Source: Syncephalis fuscata
Taxonomy: Eukaryota > Zoopagomycota > Zoopagomycetes > Zoopagales > Piptocephalidaceae
Assembly: GCA_025786725.1 (NCBI GenBank)
Contig: JAHLTZ010000021.1
Location: 1-64,000 of the forward strand
Reading direction: 5' to 3'
DNA length: 64,000 nt
Both the position numbers and the translations under genes were made by a program. This document shows, piece after piece, positions 7,135 to 15,600 of the stretch; position 1 is the first letter of the stretch; each line of letters starts with the position of its first letter. The notes below the pieces were generated by a model. It searched no databases and had not been told where the DNA came from. It saw only the letters and a program-made list of their open reading frames with translations.

Positions 7135-9200
7135 ACCACAAAATTTTATGGCAAAATTTATTATCTGTTTCAAAAGTCAAAATTGCAAAAAAAAAAGAAA
7201 AATTAAAAATAGTTATATTGAATATACGACAAGCTATGTTTTATATACGTACTCAAACATCATTTATTGGTTGCTATTTACTTTGCATTCCCCATTCAGC
7301 ACAATAAATTATCTTACGCAATTCATTGTAATGAGTTGATTAAATTAAATTGTGTTTAAATCGCCATTCACAATAAATATTAACGCAATACTATTATTTA
7401 TTATTATTTCCATAAGTTGATTAAATGTAACAGAAAGATTGTATTAGTAACTGCTATTTTAAACAGTTAAATAAAAAATGTAACATAATATTTAATTTGA
7501 TTAAAACATTTAAGGTTGATCATTGTTGTTGCTGGTTATGTATAGAAATATTGATAGAAGCCATTGATTGCGACTCCATGTCGTTCCGCAGTTGTTGTTG
7601 TTACTACGTACAGTGTAATTTCTTGCGTCTGAATGGTCTCTTCTATTTTTTAATCTTCTACTGTCGCATTTGGGGAGATTTGCAATGTGAGATACTCGTT
7701 TATAGTGACAAAAAGGTAGGACGACTAGCGTTTCTAATGTTCACTACTCTCTTGAGCATCCTTGGTATCAACTTGGTAGGCGCAGATTATTTGCCGACCA
7801 TCAATAAAGCAAATCGACCTCCACCATATGCAATAATGATAGGTTGAGTGTCTTCACTAGAAAGATATTGTGGTGACAGTTGTAACCAGAATATACGGCA
7901 TGCCGTTGAGGTTACTTGAACAGATGTTGATGTAAATAAGAGAAATAAAAACTAGTGATTGAATATGTTATTTATTGATGTTCAAATACGCATGTTATTT
8001 ATATTGTTATATTCAGCATTATCACATAATATATTACTGAGTAAAAAGATAAGATAACAATAGAAAAAGAAAGTGAAATGAATAAATAAAAAATGTGGAG
8101 TCAAGGTAAAAATGACATGACCATATAAATATTACACACTCAATCCAATGTTTTGTTTTATTTTAATATATAGCTATACAACTTTTATTAATGATCAATA
8201 AATGAAATTAATCTGTCTTTCAATTGTTGCAATAATGTATAATATTAGCTGCTTATTTTAATAAGTAATTAGATTAAGCCTTATAATAGTTGTTTTAGTT
8301 GATGATCGTGTACATGCAAGTATTTAAGAAGTTACAATGTGATTGGGAATATTTATCCATACAAACAACTAGAATTATAAATTATAGTGACAATAACAAG
8401 TTATTTAACTACTAAACTTGTTAATTCAATTTTATTTACATCTCTCTGTTTTCTGTGCGTTATCTCAGTTTAACGTTGCTGCTGTTCTAGTCGCATCAGC
8501 AACAGCCAACTTTTGATAAGTATAGTTCAACTTAGCATAACTATAGTTCAACTTAGCATAGCTATAATGGTTTGCTATATGTTAAACCAGTAAGCCTGTG
8601 AGCTTTCAATTGCTTTCCATTGGTTTCTGCTCTGACTTGTTCTTCTATATTCTATTTTGTTTGACTTGTCAGAAATGGTTTCAGAAATGTGGACAGCACT
8701 TAGGCCTTGGATAATTACCGGTTTATATGCAATCTATAGCCACTATGCACTCGAAATTACTGGTAATTGTTTAATGCTTTCTATTGGGTCTAGCTAGTGT
8801 CTGCATATTGTATTGTGTGTAGTTTAGCCAATGCAATCTAGTCTACACCTGAAAACCGACGACAAAAATGACTTGTTGGGATGCTCCATTGCTCAAACCG
8901 CTGTGATGCATTACCCTACAAATAGCACTTATTGTATAATCGATTCCAGGTGTTTTAGATTAGTTGCCATTTGAATGCTGATAGTTGCACAATATATGTC
9001 ATGATATGCCTGGATGTGATGCATTTGTGAATTCAAAACAATGATTACCCCTGTAACAATGGGCATCGTGTTGAATAAAATGCATACATGTACCAATCAA
9101 CACGCTCTATAATTTAAAAGATTATGAGTGACTTATGCATGGCAGTAAAAACCTGTATAAATACCAGTTCAATACATCAAGCTTGTTTTTGTATTAATGT
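7135..9200. other. Intergenic region with a patch of higher GC at 7540-7900
   Basis: Mostly AT-rich with no supported gene. At 7540-7900 the base composition rises and both strands carry 36-50 codon open stretches, including a plus-strand one at 7738-7848 with a signal-peptide-like start. None matches a family I know, so it may be a decayed or unrecognised short gene. A short direct repeat with the core TATAGTTCAACTTAGCATA occurs twice at about 8521-8566. Confidence 0.4.
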
Positions 9201-9680
9201 TGCGTGTTATTTTGTATGCATGCAGATATTGGAGACCGAGCCATTAAGTGGAAATGACAGTAAAGACATCACTATCGTTTTCACAAAGCCAAACAATATA
9301 CTTGTTTTTACCAAATAGCTAGGTCGTGTAACAAAAATACCGGCTAATATACCTATCTCTATTGCATATTTACTGAATTATTAGCGTTGTTACATCATTC
9401 GTGCGAATAACTGGTAGATTGAAGTAAAGACCGAATAGATTATGCGTTATTTTGTATGGATGCAAATATTGAGGATCGAGTCATTCAGTAGAAGCAACAG
9501 CAAAGACGTCATTACCGTTTTCACAAAGCCAAACAATATGCTTGTTTTTGCCAAATAGTTAAACCGTGTAATAAAAAATACAGGATGAGGTGCATGTCTC
9601 TATCGCATATGTGCTGTTCATTGGAATTGCCGCGTCATTTGTGTAAATGCCGAGCAGGTTGAAACCAAGATTGGGCATGT
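9201..9680. repeat. Diverged tandem duplication, 240-bp unit
   Basis: The stretch from about 9201 (TGCGTGTTATTTTGTATG) recurs from about 9441 (TATGCGTTATTTTGTATG) with a constant offset of 240 bases. The two copies share long blocks such as TTTTCACAAAGCCAAACAAT but have many substitutions. The unit lies directly upstream of the micro-exon gene and has no convincing coding frame: a frame open across the first copy is not kept in the second. Confidence 0.75.
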
Positions 9681-9834
9681 TGCAACCAAGACTGGGAAGC
9701 ATGCTGTCACGCCATGAATCTACTGGTACACGCGCGCCTCAAAGTATTATTTGGATTGCTTTATTGGTTCATATTACACATCAATGGTATATCTCGTATA
9801 CTGCAGCATACTAGCATCTCAGCATAGCCATAAG

Positions 9835-9842
9835 TATAAATA
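9835..9842 (+). promoter_or_regulatory. TATA box of the micro-exon gene
   Basis: TATAAATA stands 136 bases before the ATG at 9978 and is followed by a C/A-rich leader without an upstream ATG. Secreted genes at 51793 and 53676 have a similar TATAAA at roughly 155-180 bases before their ATG. Confidence 0.6.
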
Positions 9843-9977: not shown

Positions 9978-12640
9978 ATGAAGCTTTCTATTGCCGTCGT
10001 TTGCACCATTGTCGTTGCGCTTGTGGCCGTTACAACCATGGTGGATGCTAAACCAGCTTTAGTTCGTCGTGGTATGTTGCAATAACAATAAATATAACAG
10101 CATTTGTTTATTAACAGTATTTCTAAATAATAATTAAATAGATCGTAAGTTATATTGTATGTTAACTATTTACCCACTACTTATATACCATGTACTGTGT
10201 TTATAAACAACTAAATATCAATAGCTAGTAGGTTGCATTATATATTAATAGAACATACACTAATTATGTGTTATATTCTATCTATCAACAACTTAATATT
10301 AGTTCAATGCAAGTTGTATTGTATATTAATTTATTACTCACTAATTGCATGTTATGCGCCATGTGTACCAACAACTAATACTAATAGGCGGTAAGTAATA
10401 TTGTATATTGATGGCTTATAAATTAATTATATACCATGTATTGTGTATATCAACAATTTAATATTAATAGCTGGTAAGTCGTACTGTATATTAACTTACT
10501 ATGCGCTAATTGTATACTATGCACCGTGTATATCAATAACAATATAATAGCATGTAAGTTGTATTGTATATTAGTTGAGCATTATTTAACTGTATATTGT
10601 GTATTATATGTATCAATAACTTGATAATAATAGGCGGTAAGTAGCAATATATATTGCTGACATAAATTAATTGTGTGTCATGCACTGTGCGTATCAATAA
10701 TTTGATGGAATAGTTGGCAAGTAACATTACATATTCACTGATTATACACTAATTATATCCATGCATTGCGTGTTTCAATAACTTAATATTAATAGAAAGT
10801 AAGTTGTATCGTATACTAGCTAATTACTTACTAATTATATCCATGTATTGCGTGCATCAACAAATATTAATAGACTGTAAGTAGCATTGTATATTGGTTG
10901 ACTATGCATTAACTATGCTATTTACTGATTGTATCGATTATTTAATATTAATAGGCAGTAAGTGGTATTTTATATTAACTGCCTATATATTAACTGCTAT
11001 TTATTGATTGTACCAATTGTTTAATATTAATAGAGAGTAAGCAATATTGTATATTAACTGACTATATATTAACTGCTATTTACTAATTGTACCAAATATT
11101 TAATACTAATAGAAAGTAAGTTGTATCGTGTATTAACTGACTATATATTAACTGCTATTTACTAATTGTACCAATTGTTTAATATTAATAGCTGGTAAGT
11201 AGTATTGTATAACAATGAACTATACATTAATCACATTTTATTGATTGATTGACCGATTATTTGATACTAATAGGCAGTAAGTAGTATTATATATTAATTA
11301 ACTGTACATTGACTTTGATATTTACTGATAATATTAATTATTTAATATTAATAGGCAGTAAGTAGTATTATATATTAATTAACTGTACATTAACTATGAA
11401 TTTATTGATAATATTAATTATTTAATATTAATAGTGGTAAGTATTATTGCATTTTAATTAACTATACATTACTTATACTATTTACTGACGATATTTATAA
11501 TATTAATAGAGAGTAAGCAATATTGTATATTAACTGACTATACATTAACTATACTATTTACTAATCGTATTAATTATTTAATATTAATAGAATGTAAGTA
11601 ATATTATATATTAACTGAGTATATATAAATTGTGCTATTTACTAATTGTACCGATTATTTAATATTAATAGGTCGTAAGTTGTATTATATATTAATTAAC
11701 TATGCATTAGCTATAATATTTACTGATTGTATCAATTATTTAATATTAATAGGTCGTAAGTTGTATTGTGTATTAGCTGACTATACACTAACTATGCTAT
11801 TTACTAATGTATCAATTGTTTAATATTAATAGATGGTAAGTAGTGTTGTGTATTAGCTGACTATACACTAACTATGCTATTTACTAACTGTATCAATTGT
11901 TTAATATTGATAGATTGTAAGTATATTGTATATTAACTGAATATACATTAATTATGCCATTTACTGCTTGTACTGGTTATTTAATATTAATAGGCAGTAA
12001 GTAGTATTGTATATTAACTGATTACTCACTAATCACATCCTATTTACTAACTGTATTAATTGTTTAATATTAATAGATCGTAAGTGATATTGTATATTAA
12101 CTGAATATACATTAATTATGCCATTTACTAACTGTATCAATTATTTAATATTAATAGGATGTAAGTAATATTATATATTAACTGAGTATATATTAATTAT
12201 GTTATTTACTGATTGTACCGATTATTTAATATTAATAGATGGTAAGTGGTATTATATATTAATTAACTATGCATTAACTAAGCTATTTACTGATGATACC
12301 GCTTATTTAATATTAATAGTGGGTAAGTAATATTATATATTAACTGACTATACATTAACTAAGCTATTTATTGATAATATTAATTATTTAATATTAATAG
12401 GGGGTAAGTGGTATTGTATATTAACTGACTATACACTAATTATACTACTTACTGATAATATTAATTATGTAATATTAATAGATTGTAAGTGATATTGTAT
12501 ATCAATTGACTATGCACTAATCGCATGTTATTTATTATGTGTATCTATAACTTAATATTAATAGGCGGTAAGTAACATTATATATTAATTGGCTATGCAT
12601 TAATTATACGACACGTAATTTTTTTGTAAATACAGAATAA
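9978..12640 (+). CDS. Secreted cysteine-rich peptide encoded by about 30 one-codon micro-exons
   Basis: Exon 1 (9978-10071) encodes MKLSIAVVCTIVVALVAVTT, then VDAKPALVRR and one base of the next codon: a signal peptide and a dibasic kexin-type site. It ends in a GTATGT donor. The next 2.5 kb holds inserts between a TAG acceptor and a GTAAGT-like donor, starting at 10142, 10225, 10303 (6 nt, GC donor), 10388, 10471, 10551, 10634, 10714 (GC donor), 10796, 10874, 10955, 11034, 11113, 11192, 11274, 11355, 11435 (2 nt), 11510, 11591, 11672, 11753, 11833, 11914, 11994, 12077, 12158, 12239, 12320, 12401, 12482 and 12565. All the rest are 3 nt. The terminal exon starts at 12636. Joined in phase 1, without the 2-nt insert or with it as TGG, the frame has no stop until TAA at 12638-12640. 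The mature part is about 32 residues with six Cys, spaced x2, x3, x7 (or x8), x3, x6. The CxxxC...CxxxC core recalls helical-hairpin peptides. Splicing is inferred, not shown. Alternative: an unspliced 35-codon frame ending at TAA 10083. Confidence 0.72.
10072..12635 (+). repeat. Tandem array of about 32 homologous introns (period about 80-81 nt)
   Basis: The spaces between the 3-nt inserts are 68-80 nt, most often 78. They begin GTAAGT(A/T)-TATT-TATATTAACTGA and end TTTAATATTAATAG. Units 10877-12481 are very alike, with a central ACTATACATTAACTATGCTATTTACTGAT-like part. Units before 10877 form an older group with a different centre (CATGTATTGTGTATATCAACAA). The array therefore grew by tandem duplication of an intron-exon unit, or is kept uniform by conversion. 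The conserved part stops exactly at the splice signals on both sides of the variable triplet. Confidence 0.9.
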
Positions 12641-15600
12641 TCGATGGTTTCAAGACATCAGCATTGGTAGTGTAATTGAACCACTATTCCAATACACTTT
12701 AGGTATATATTCGGTGAAAAGCAAGACCATTTGACAACTACGCCGTCCAGTCTATTATATATCAAGTTTTGGCCAATGCTCCGGTTTATCAGTCTTTAAT
12801 CAATGGAATCATCATTTTATTAACAAGATTGCATCTAGTTGTTTCTATTCAACTGTGCAAGCTTATAGTAATAAACCTATGGTTCCATCTTAATTATATA
12901 CAATCAAATTGCTATATCTATAATCACGTTCTATTTACATTCAATAATTGACAACTATTAATCAAATAGTTAAATTAACAAAATGTATATGATCATATCA
13001 CCTAAGCTATAGGCATAGATTGATATGAATAGTAGCAAAGCTATCATTATCATATAGCCAAATAATATTATGCTGAAATTAAAATAAAAACGCTTTTTAA
13101 TAGAACATGGCAATAAAGCATAGGATATTATAATATAAAATAAATAAGCGAATTAGATACGTGAATAGTGATAGTGAAACTATACTGTATGCAATTGGCC
13201 AAGAGTAATGAACTAAATGAATCAAAATACACTAAAAGAATACAGTTAGCAATGAGCTTTTAGCCTTTGTTAGTATAATTTTTACAATTTACAATATTAA
13301 TGGTATAGATGGTCATATAGTACAAATATACAGGATAGCTATGCACAGTACAATAATAATGATAAATAAATAGCTTAATAACCAATGACACTCAGCAGCC
13401 AGTTTTATCTTCAATAAAGCGAATATTTCGTTTAAATGTGTGGCTATTATAGCTATTTAACTGCCAAGTCACATTATACAATCAATAGTGTGCTTAATAT
13501 TATCAAAAAAGTTATCTTTATTTAGTTAATAAAAATATAAGATTTAATACAAGTCAAGTGGATTAAATGATCCGTCACAGCACCCTTTTAAGCTTCTTTT
13601 GCCATGTTCCACAACTTTTTTAAATTGAAACATTGGAGCGACTACTGCGACATTTAAAAGTAGATGTTACGAGTAGATTGTTATAGTTTATCAATGGCAA
13701 ATGCCATGTTGACGATTTTATTTTGCATATCTTCACTCTTGCTTGATAAACCAACTAATTAATTTAAGTTGATCAAAGCAATAATACTTTTATGCAACTC
13801 GAAATTGTTTAATTGCTAAATCTGATATCTGAAATGCTCTAAATAAGCCAATCTAATCTTATTTGTTGGTTAAATTTTTTTTGCTTGCATTAAAATTTAT
13901 TTATTTATTTTAATGTTTGTTTCATTAGTTGTTTGTTTTTATTTTTCAATAAAGACATTTATTTTAACATTAATTACTATTCCAACATTATTATTCTAAT
14001 TTTTACAGAGCATGTTGTTTATTGTATTTTTTGAGTTGCATTTGCTACAATTAACTAAACTATGTAAATAAACAAAGTTTTAAATTAAAATTGTTGCATT
14101 TATTGTAATTAAATTTTTCCCATCAGGCAATTTAGCTTTGTAACTTTTATTATTCAATAATATTATAACTACATAATACTGTTACTCAAATAATAAAAAT
14201 GCCTTTTATAATCCAATTCATTTAGCTTATATCAGAAGCTATACAATTACAATGTTTGTTATAGATATGATAATTTAAGCTATTTTTATAAGTTATTTAA
14301 TAATAATAATATTGTTTATTAAACTGATATTAAACATTTAATTAAGCTACTATTTCTATTTTTTTCTTTTTTAATTACTTGTCCAGAGTTAGAACATTTT
14401 ATCACTGATGTTGTAACAATGTCATTCTTTCTTATTAAATCAAAAGCATACCAAACATTGTAGTAAAAAATAATTGCATCTGTTGAGCTATTACAATTGC
14501 TAGTGTATACTAAATAATTAATTATATACTTGTACATCTGTTGATTTTACATTTAAGAATGTAGTAATATTATTTGCAATTGCCAATAAGCTTAAACTTA
14601 TCAAAGGCAACCTCCAGTTTTTCAATAGTGGTAAATTTAGATTTTTTAAATTGATGTATTTTGGTAAATTCCTTATTAATATTTAAGTAATATATGTTTT
14701 AGTATCATCTTTTATTTAAAAATACTAATTTTATACGGACAATAAACTTTATTTATCTTTGGTTATTTATATATATTTTTTAATTATAATGTTAAAAGTT
14801 AATTATGCTAATTGATTATTAGAAAAAAAGTAGTTGATTGCTTAATTTATAATACTATAACAATTACATAAAAATTTCGTAATTAAACATGTGTGAGACA
14901 TGCATACGAGATTTACAATACCACTCACTATTAGTTTTATTATTAGTATCTAGTAGTAAAAATTTAATAAACAATATGTCTTTCTGTCCAAAATCCATCA
15001 CTGTTTCCATTATTTACAAATATTCCAAATTGACTGAATATCAATCTCAGCAGAATTCTACAACATTACATAAGTTGACTAGAAGAAGCTCCACTTTAAT
15101 TAACACAGTATCAAATCACCTATGGCGATGATAGATTTGTTGACATCACAGACAATATTATTATTGTTGAATACGCTTGTCATAAGTGCATGAGCAATAA
15201 ATACATAATATTTGTATGATTGAGTAATTAACCACATATAATACTAACTGTAGTGTGTTTATTTTAGTTGCACACTTTGTTTAGATTAAATTATTTTAGC
15301 TTGTAATTGTCAGTGTTTGAATTTATACTTGGTCAATATTGCCATCACACGATCAAGCACTAGTTCAAATTATTTAACAATCTAACATTTATATTCACTT
15401 AGCATATAAACAATGACAATGTAAATTACCATTTTATTGTTAGTAAAATATTAACATTGCTATTATTTGCACCAAATGCTTTATTAATCAAATAAACAAC
15501 GTCTCGCATTCAATTACTACTTATTTTATTTACTTATAATATTAATTTATTATTAAAATTATAATATTATACTCATAAATAGTAAATGGCAATACTATTA

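Follow-up and report, generated by a model that had tools for sequence, protein, structure and literature searches.

The window considered here, i.e., the whole stretch of 64,000 nucleotides that was analysed, lies on contig C124 of the 28.95-Mb, 299-contig genome of Syncephalis fuscata (Zoopagales, Piptocephalidaceae). Apart from the window's own protein, the best named match to the PFAS gene also present in the window comes from S. plumigaleata, at 85%. Its plus strand carries a gene in which an exon for a signal peptide is followed by a long series of similar intron-like units, separated by inserts that are nearly always three nucleotides long. A sequence-only reading had taken these inserts for micro-exons of a secreted peptide; its observation as a whole is partly confirmed, and its core interpretation is supported, as far as comparison of sequences within the genome can support it. 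The gene very probably belongs to an extensive family of S. fuscata genes that encode secreted cysteine-rich peptides in tandem intron-exon units. The window copy comprises the following features:

9835..9842, plus strand: TATA-box-like motif TATAAATA, whose TATAAA begins 143 nt 5′ of the ATG; a putative promoter element.
9978..10071, plus strand: exon 1, with the signal peptide, a short pro-part, and Arg-Arg (MKLSIAVVCTIVVALVAVTTMVDAKPALVRR) plus one base, which sets phase 1 (sequence read).
10072..10141, plus strand: first intron, GTATGT...TAG, 70 nt (sequence read).
10142..12567, plus strand: array of 31 putative micro-exons (29 of 3 nt, one of 6 nt, one of 2 nt) with introns of 73–80 nt between them (splice-chain search).
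10303..10308, plus strand: 6-nt micro-exon TTCAAT, third or fourth of the array; many paralogues likewise have a 6-nt exon there.
11435..11436, plus strand: 2-nt unit TG, the sole unit of the window copy whose length is not a multiple of three; the frame is shifted if it is included.
12568..12635, plus strand: terminal intron, 68 nt, with a differing T-rich 3′ end, TTTTTTTGTAAATACAG.
12636..12760, plus strand: last exon, AATAATCGATGG..., whose TAA is the family stop codon, then the 3′ region common to split and intronless genes; 12760 is the end of the listed span and not a mapped exon end.

This anatomy agrees exactly with what had been read from the sequence, as a splice-chain search with no preference for exon length returned, on the plus strand of the array, the same exon 1, the same 29/1/1 inserts (score 111), and a last exon that begins at 12636, directly after AAATACAG. 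The minus strand of the array scored only 18.8, the maximum over 42 other window segments was 10.8 (3-nt exons 4 of 190), and that over 30 Markov resamples of the array was 11.8 (3-nt exons 4 of 211). Allowing at most one mismatch, the motif ATTAATAG-N3-GTAAGT has 25 matches in the window, all within the array, against a mean of 0.07 in shuffles. As a correction to the GTAAGT-like donors assigned to the units, a few read GCAAGT, GTAGGT, or GTAAGC.

Signal peptides similar to that of exon 1 occur at no fewer than 150 scored places among 314 candidates in the 29-Mb genome, all with E <1e-6 and 65–100% identity, and a second signal-peptide query again gave at least 150 places, among 321 candidates. 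Both this family and the existence of contiguous versions of the gene were beyond the reach of the sequence-only reading. The account of the family given below is based on 40 regions, which yielded 43 signal-peptide hits including the window: 31 with arrays and 12 without introns, the latter representing 11 distinct genes, as there is an overlap between two regions. Another three regions added three arrays: L073, which is complete, has 24 micro-exons, and ends at the family stop; L071, which includes a 2-nt unit; and L072, which has no off-frame unit; no last exon was recognised in the latter two. The sample covers all but 106 of 150 places. Among the 31 arrays, 18 run without disturbance between exon 1 and the stop, with 24–49 micro-exons per gene, and 13, the window copy included, are truncated, disrupted, or incompletely parsed. 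The 18 may correspond to fewer independent cases, as the near-identical pairs L032/L034, L036/L037, L038/L049, L043/L065, and L044/L045, some of them on small contigs, may represent alleles or duplications in the assembly. Of the undisturbed arrays read, the longest is L046 (G000:C135:460000-465000), with 49 micro-exons, all of 3 nt, which would encode an eight-cysteine peptide.

The length of the inserts was examined genome-wide with a search that involves no parser, in which AATATTAATAG-N3-GTAAGT gave 1,073 matches, spacings of N0-2 gave 6, N4-5 gave 1, N6 gave 0, and the reversed control gave 0; exons of 6 nt do exist in the arrays, but their acceptors miss the strict AATATTAATAG motif. Since only 350 of the 821 three-nucleotide units in the arrays read match the strict motif, the genome may hold about 2,500 such units by extrapolation. 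In the 27 arrays with at least 20 introns, parsed without any length preference, 839 of 896 internal exons are multiples of three and 780 are exactly 3 nt, the exceptions being largely run-on past the array, so that short symmetric internal exons make up most of the coding part, as in a micro-exon gene. When 3-nt or multiple-of-three exons were mildly favoured, in the parse that underlies the phase, stop, and substitution counts below, 827 of 833 exons were multiples of three, against 789 introns split 306/202/281 modulo 3; repeating the length test without the preference recovered 826 of the 833 exons.

Within the unit, variability across the 53 columns peaks at the triplet, with a diversity of 0.71–0.74 over 27 genes, followed by 0.65 for the next column and 0–0.02 for the GT and AG positions, which upholds the earlier remark that the triplet varies more than its flanks. 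The introns (median length 78 nt) have the GT...AG ends of spliceosomal introns: over 821 units the donor GTAAGT is conserved at 95–100% per position, in a parse that favours donor-like sites, and the acceptors are mostly TAATAG. As the donor is nearly invariant and the acceptor mostly constant while the exon bases beside the donor are free to vary, it must be the intron that is recognised.

In 26 of the 27 arrays exon 1 ends one base into a codon, and with exon lengths in multiples of three almost all internal exons start at codon position 2. Read in this phase, the 27 genes give 137 cysteines, 2 stops, and a CX2CX3C motif in 13, compared with 16 and 34 cysteines, 8 and 83 stops, and no CX2CX3C in either of the two other phases; shuffling the order of the units leaves 63 cysteines, 46 stops, and 0.24 CX2CX3C. 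A last exon was recognised in 24 arrays that have 18 or more micro-exons; off-frame units are absent from 19 of them, and the frame of 18 of these 19 ends at the last-exon stop. Base composition at triplet positions 3, 1, and 2 tracks that at codon positions 1, 2, and 3 of the intronless paralogues.

The intronless hits provide a contiguous counterpart to the arrays: they resemble the split genes in upstream sequence, signal peptide, and 3′ end, and they encode comparable cysteine frameworks without a break in the frame. In 10 of the 12, 247–575 aligned upstream nucleotides are 79–83% identical to a split gene, the aligned stretch being only 77 and 105 in L056 and L070. Their 3′ ends match those of split genes from the last acceptor onward in most cases; for example, the end of L057, '...tgt gaa taa TCGATGGTTTTAAGACATCAGC', matches the window '(G)|AATAATCGATGGTTTCAAGACATCAGC' at the start of the last exon. 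A second type of 3′ end, Asn-Pro-stop, is likewise found in both kinds of gene (L062 and L064 intronless; L044, L045, L053, L068, and L069 split).

The cysteine spacings run in parallel as well, with 2-3-9-3-3 (L047), 2-3-13-3-3 (L057), and 3-3-8-3-3 (L062) in intronless genes, and 2-3-10-3-3 (L061), 2-3-13-4-3 (L038), and 3-3-7-3-3 (L045) in split ones. Six cysteines are present in 14 of 18 joined peptides and in 7 of 10 distinct intronless peptides; the remainder have four (L043, L065, and L069, and, in a different pattern, L056), seven (L052), or eight (L046 and L070). In the mature part, four cysteines are shared by all members of an alignment of 14 sequences that we chose (6 intronless, 8 joined). 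Apart from the cysteines the peptides resemble each other weakly on average (mean z of 1.56 when cysteines are held and 3.22 when they are not), as expected because the peptide is hypervariable. A search of the genome for a contiguous twin with the joined L061 peptide gave no match and is uninformative as to presence or absence. One database protein, P0124, is identical letter for letter to the intronless peptide of L070. Phase, intronless paralogues, and the length control indicate that the triplets would be coding, and the proposal of a secreted peptide specified at about one codon per exon finds strong support within the genome from the frame, the cysteine framework, the 3′ ends, and the intronless paralogues.

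The triplets change several times faster than their flanks, which include the fixed splice sites. Where the 80 flanking bases differ by 2, the triplet difference per site is 0.17 between genes (39 pairs) and 0.45 within genes (11 pairs), and where they differ by 3–4 it is 0.48 between genes (151 pairs) and 0.59 within genes (38 pairs); these rates include non-corresponding units. In a separate comparison, the high triplet rates of distant pairs may in part come from units aligned out of register. Identical introns sometimes precede different triplets. Whole units are also gained or lost, L036 having three more than L037 and L069 running CAA ACC CAA ACC. Introns of one gene are about 76–85% alike, and in 8 of 8 arrays tested neighbouring introns resemble each other more than distant ones do, in L046 only marginally.

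Twelve introns of eleven genes (L032, L035, L038, L043, L044, L049, L051 with two, L055, L060, L065, and L066) carry a related insert of ∼410 bp near the 5′ end of the array intron, the L035 copy being more diverged. By eye, the 3′ part of this insert looks tRNA-derived in reverse (A- and B-box-like) and the target bases are duplicated, so that it resembles a short interspersed element with a preferred site. Seven of the eleven genes (L032, L038, L043, L044, L049, L055, and L065) are otherwise undisturbed.

Taken together, these findings suggest that a unit consists of an entire short intron, about 78 nt long, and, nearly always, one codon's worth of exon in phase 1, and that the spliceosome would join 24–49 such micro-exons in order between the signal-peptide exon and the stop-codon exon. 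Simultaneous occupation of two splice sites with only 3 nt between them is improbable, so that neighbouring introns would most likely be removed one by one, each ligation adding a codon and bringing the upstream exon to the next GTAAGT, a process that would amount to recursive splicing with a 3-nt payload. The authors of the work on the 1-nt exon of APC11 reasoned likewise, proposing intron definition and recursive splicing (PMC4674806). Because nearly every unit is symmetric, units could be duplicated, lost, or skipped without a frameshift. The triplets have turned hypervariable while the splice signals stayed fixed. The precursor would be secreted and probably cut after Arg-Arg, leaving a peptide of about 28–49 residues; from the signal-peptide-like exon and from Kex2 biology in general, we presume secretion through the signal peptide of exon 1 and a Kex2-type cleavage after the two arginines. 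The mature peptide would typically have six cysteines, CX2-3CX3C...CX3-4CX3-4C, possibly as a disulphide-braced helical hairpin. Fungi of the Zoopagales and Piptocephalidaceae live as parasites of other fungi, and a role of the peptides against other fungi is a guess from this lifestyle. As a whole, the genome probably holds proteins assembled residue by residue from one-codon exons, in a family that counts at least 150 places, split genes in many cases, with some 2,500 three-nucleotide exons, recursive splicing in strict order, length changing through unit duplication, sequence changing through hypervariable triplets, and occasional conversion to or from a contiguous gene.

One alternative is that the array is a minisatellite within one long intron or untranslated region, its GT/AG look inherited from the repeat unit, with exon 1 joined to the last exon and the triplets never in the mRNA. 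Tandem Repeats Finder does report positions 10863-12607 as an 81-bp tandem repeat of 21.7 copies, and a fixed 3-nt gap could be passed on through duplication alone. In a plain minisatellite, however, all columns of the unit would diverge alike and free of coding constraint, whereas here the triplets are the columns that vary most, exon lengths are kept modulo 3 and intron lengths are not, the cysteine frameworks appear in a single phase and resemble, together with the 3′ end, those of contiguous paralogues, and seven of the eleven genes with a large intron insert keep an undisturbed frame. We consider this alternative, which the sequence-only reading had already set aside, highly improbable. 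A more serious contender, though still rather doubtful, is that the array serves as a splicing-based device for diversity, in which units are often skipped and many peptides differing by single residues arise; the symmetry of nearly every unit would permit this, and the likeness of introns within a gene would let donors and acceptors of different units pair. The regular cysteine spacing that most of the 18 undisturbed arrays show with all units included argues instead that full inclusion is selected. An origin by invasion, in which introner-like intron copies split a contiguous gene at every codon and units did not arise by duplication, appears unlikely. The intronless relatives on the longest branches of a midpoint-rooted tree would suit it, as would the similarity of introns within a gene, but the CAA ACC CAA ACC of L069, with near-identical flanks, and the three-unit difference between L036 and L037 show that units are duplicated and lost, and the closer likeness of adjacent introns, marginal in L046, also runs counter to it. 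That tree covers 41 of the 43 sequences, leaving out L056-2064, which is degenerate, and L040-1657, which is one gene with L039-4457; it requires 5 switches against a shuffle mean of 9.8, and does not settle the direction of the change. Retrocopying had been considered for the intronless genes, but the upstream region that they have in common with split genes speaks against simple retroposition to new sites; conversion in place by cDNA is possible.

A different question is whether the window copy itself is intact, and here the claim of a stop-free frame with six cysteines and a TAA at the start of the last exon did not hold. With all units included, the 2-nt unit shifts the frame, only three mature-part cysteines remain, and the reading runs into the 3′ region; the six-cysteine frame is for this reason not literally true, and because the frame is broken the case for one codon per exon is weaker for the window copy alone. 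Read separately in the family phase, the units 5′ and 3′ of the 2-nt unit give three cysteines each, and the 3′ part ends at the family stop (3′ part read by hand). There is about an even chance that the family works and that the window copy is damaged, either as a decaying gene or by an assembly error, or else that its 2-nt unit is skipped, whereby the frame would be kept. The literal reading, which loses the downstream cysteines, points this way, as does the rarity of strict-motif N0-2 units, of which 11435-11436 is one of just 6 genome-wide; the three cysteines and family stop kept downstream are what recent damage or an assembly error predicts. Against it, every other unit of the window copy is a multiple of three. 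Intact family members are present elsewhere in the genome, unlike this frame-shifted copy.

Micro-exon genes are known from other lineages, and two families invite comparison. The Schistosoma micro-exon genes (MEG) encode secreted variable proteins with a conserved signal peptide and many short exons, mostly multiples of three and mostly 15 bp long (6 to 81 in the text, 3–81 in the abstract), with introns from 100 to almost 5,000 bp (PMC10526429). Compared with that description, the S. fuscata exons are nearly all exactly 3 nt and the introns about 78 nt, outside the MEG pattern. We know of no sequence link between the two families. The bicycle genes of aphids encode divergent putative effectors and have many very small internal exons, almost all of which begin at codon position 2, with ∼17 exons on average and more than 100 micro-exons in one large gene (PMC9168663). 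Almost all internal exons of the S. fuscata family also begin at codon position 2, but each unit carries just one codon, and its introns are tandemly repeated. Aphid bicycle exons are longer than one codon. No aphid relatives of the S. fuscata family turned up, as the database relatives at E up to 0.1 are 10 proteins, all of S. fuscata, and on these sequences the family is found only in this species. It would be a micro-exon gene at its extreme, and it belongs to neither the MEG nor the bicycle family. Single 1-nt exons in Arabidopsis APC11 and Fusarium CYP621A demonstrate that ultra-short exons can be spliced exactly (PMC12940212). Each of those is one isolated exon in an ordinary gene, in contrast to 24–49 in a row that would form the S. 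fuscata product. In recursive splicing the junction regenerates a donor for the next step; classical ratchet points add 0 nt, whereas each step in S. fuscata would add a codon. The sequence-only reading knew of no gene with nearly all of its mature protein encoded one codon per exon, and we found no report of serial one-codon exons in the literature searched, bioRxiv and most subscription journals being outside the search.

As for the fold, modelling and weak profile matches suggest that the mature peptide may adopt a helical hairpin. In alpha-hairpinins, such as vicilin peptides and BWI-2c, two CX3C motifs brace such a hairpin, and the split genes L043, L065, and L069 have comparable spacings of 3-12-3 and 3-14-3; the family differs from alpha-hairpinins in that no sequence match is significant (best E 0.07) and that 14 of 18 joined peptides have six cysteines rather than four. 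Ten of the 12 weak profile matches are named vicilin, vicilin-like, or BWI-2c, and the others are Ole e 6 and Ara h 1. A sequence search of the Protein Data Bank (PDB) with one joined peptide returned nothing below E 1, and a Pfam scan of 14 members matched seven families, each through one member (best E 0.0002, Toxin_2).

Several observations weigh against the interpretation favoured here. An off-frame unit is present in 6 of the 27 arrays with at least 20 introns (the window copy, L033, L035, L051, L063, and L067) and in L071 also, so that part of the family, the window copy included, may be damaged or wrongly assembled. A yeast-like branch motif, TAYTRAY, was found in just 452 of 883 introns, at a median of 27 nt from the exon (102 of 883 in shuffled introns). 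In six close paralogue pairs, the ratio of nonsynonymous to synonymous differences (pN/pS) is 0.41 in the phase of exon 1 and 0.97 and 0.68 in the others; this favours coding in that phase, but on counts as small as 9.5 synonymous and 17.5 non-synonymous changes. A score for synonymous codon usage taken from a single window gene (PFAS, housekeeping) is slightly higher for phase 2 than for phase 1; base composition by codon position, compared with the intronless paralogues, discriminated the phases better. The hairpin depends on PDB profile matches that reach only the E of 0.07 given above, the single-sequence model of the relative P0123 is of moderate quality (helices 36–46, 52–58, and 63–68; pLDDT 74–80 in the mature part and 66 overall), and Foldseek gave no significant match with this model.

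If transcripts confirm the proposed splicing, these genes would be close to a limit case of exon size and number, with almost every residue coming from its own exon. They would then offer a natural test bed for how the spliceosome keeps order across some 30 similar introns, for recursive splicing where there is no exon to define, and for a way in which new peptides evolve residue by residue without frameshifts. They would also represent a repertoire of secreted peptides largely missed by gene finders, as several of the 10 database relatives are apparently mis-modelled after Arg-Arg.

Among these relatives, P0001, P0002, P0125, P0126, P0127, and P0130 show, by eye, no cysteine framework after the signal peptide and may be intron read-through or mis-modelled exons. 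P0128 has a similar signal peptide before a cysteine-free Lys/Ala-rich protein with internal Lys-Arg sites. Codon-sized units also lie away from the listed signal-peptide places, at G000:C2:268085, C2:519673-540190, C8:17510-18976, C13:6571-7244, C113:109990-112088, and C236:111363-112317, and these may be further arrays whose first exons are more diverged or missing. In the window, two diverged copies of a segment of ∼240 bp are visible by eye at 9195-9700, just 5′ of the promoter region.

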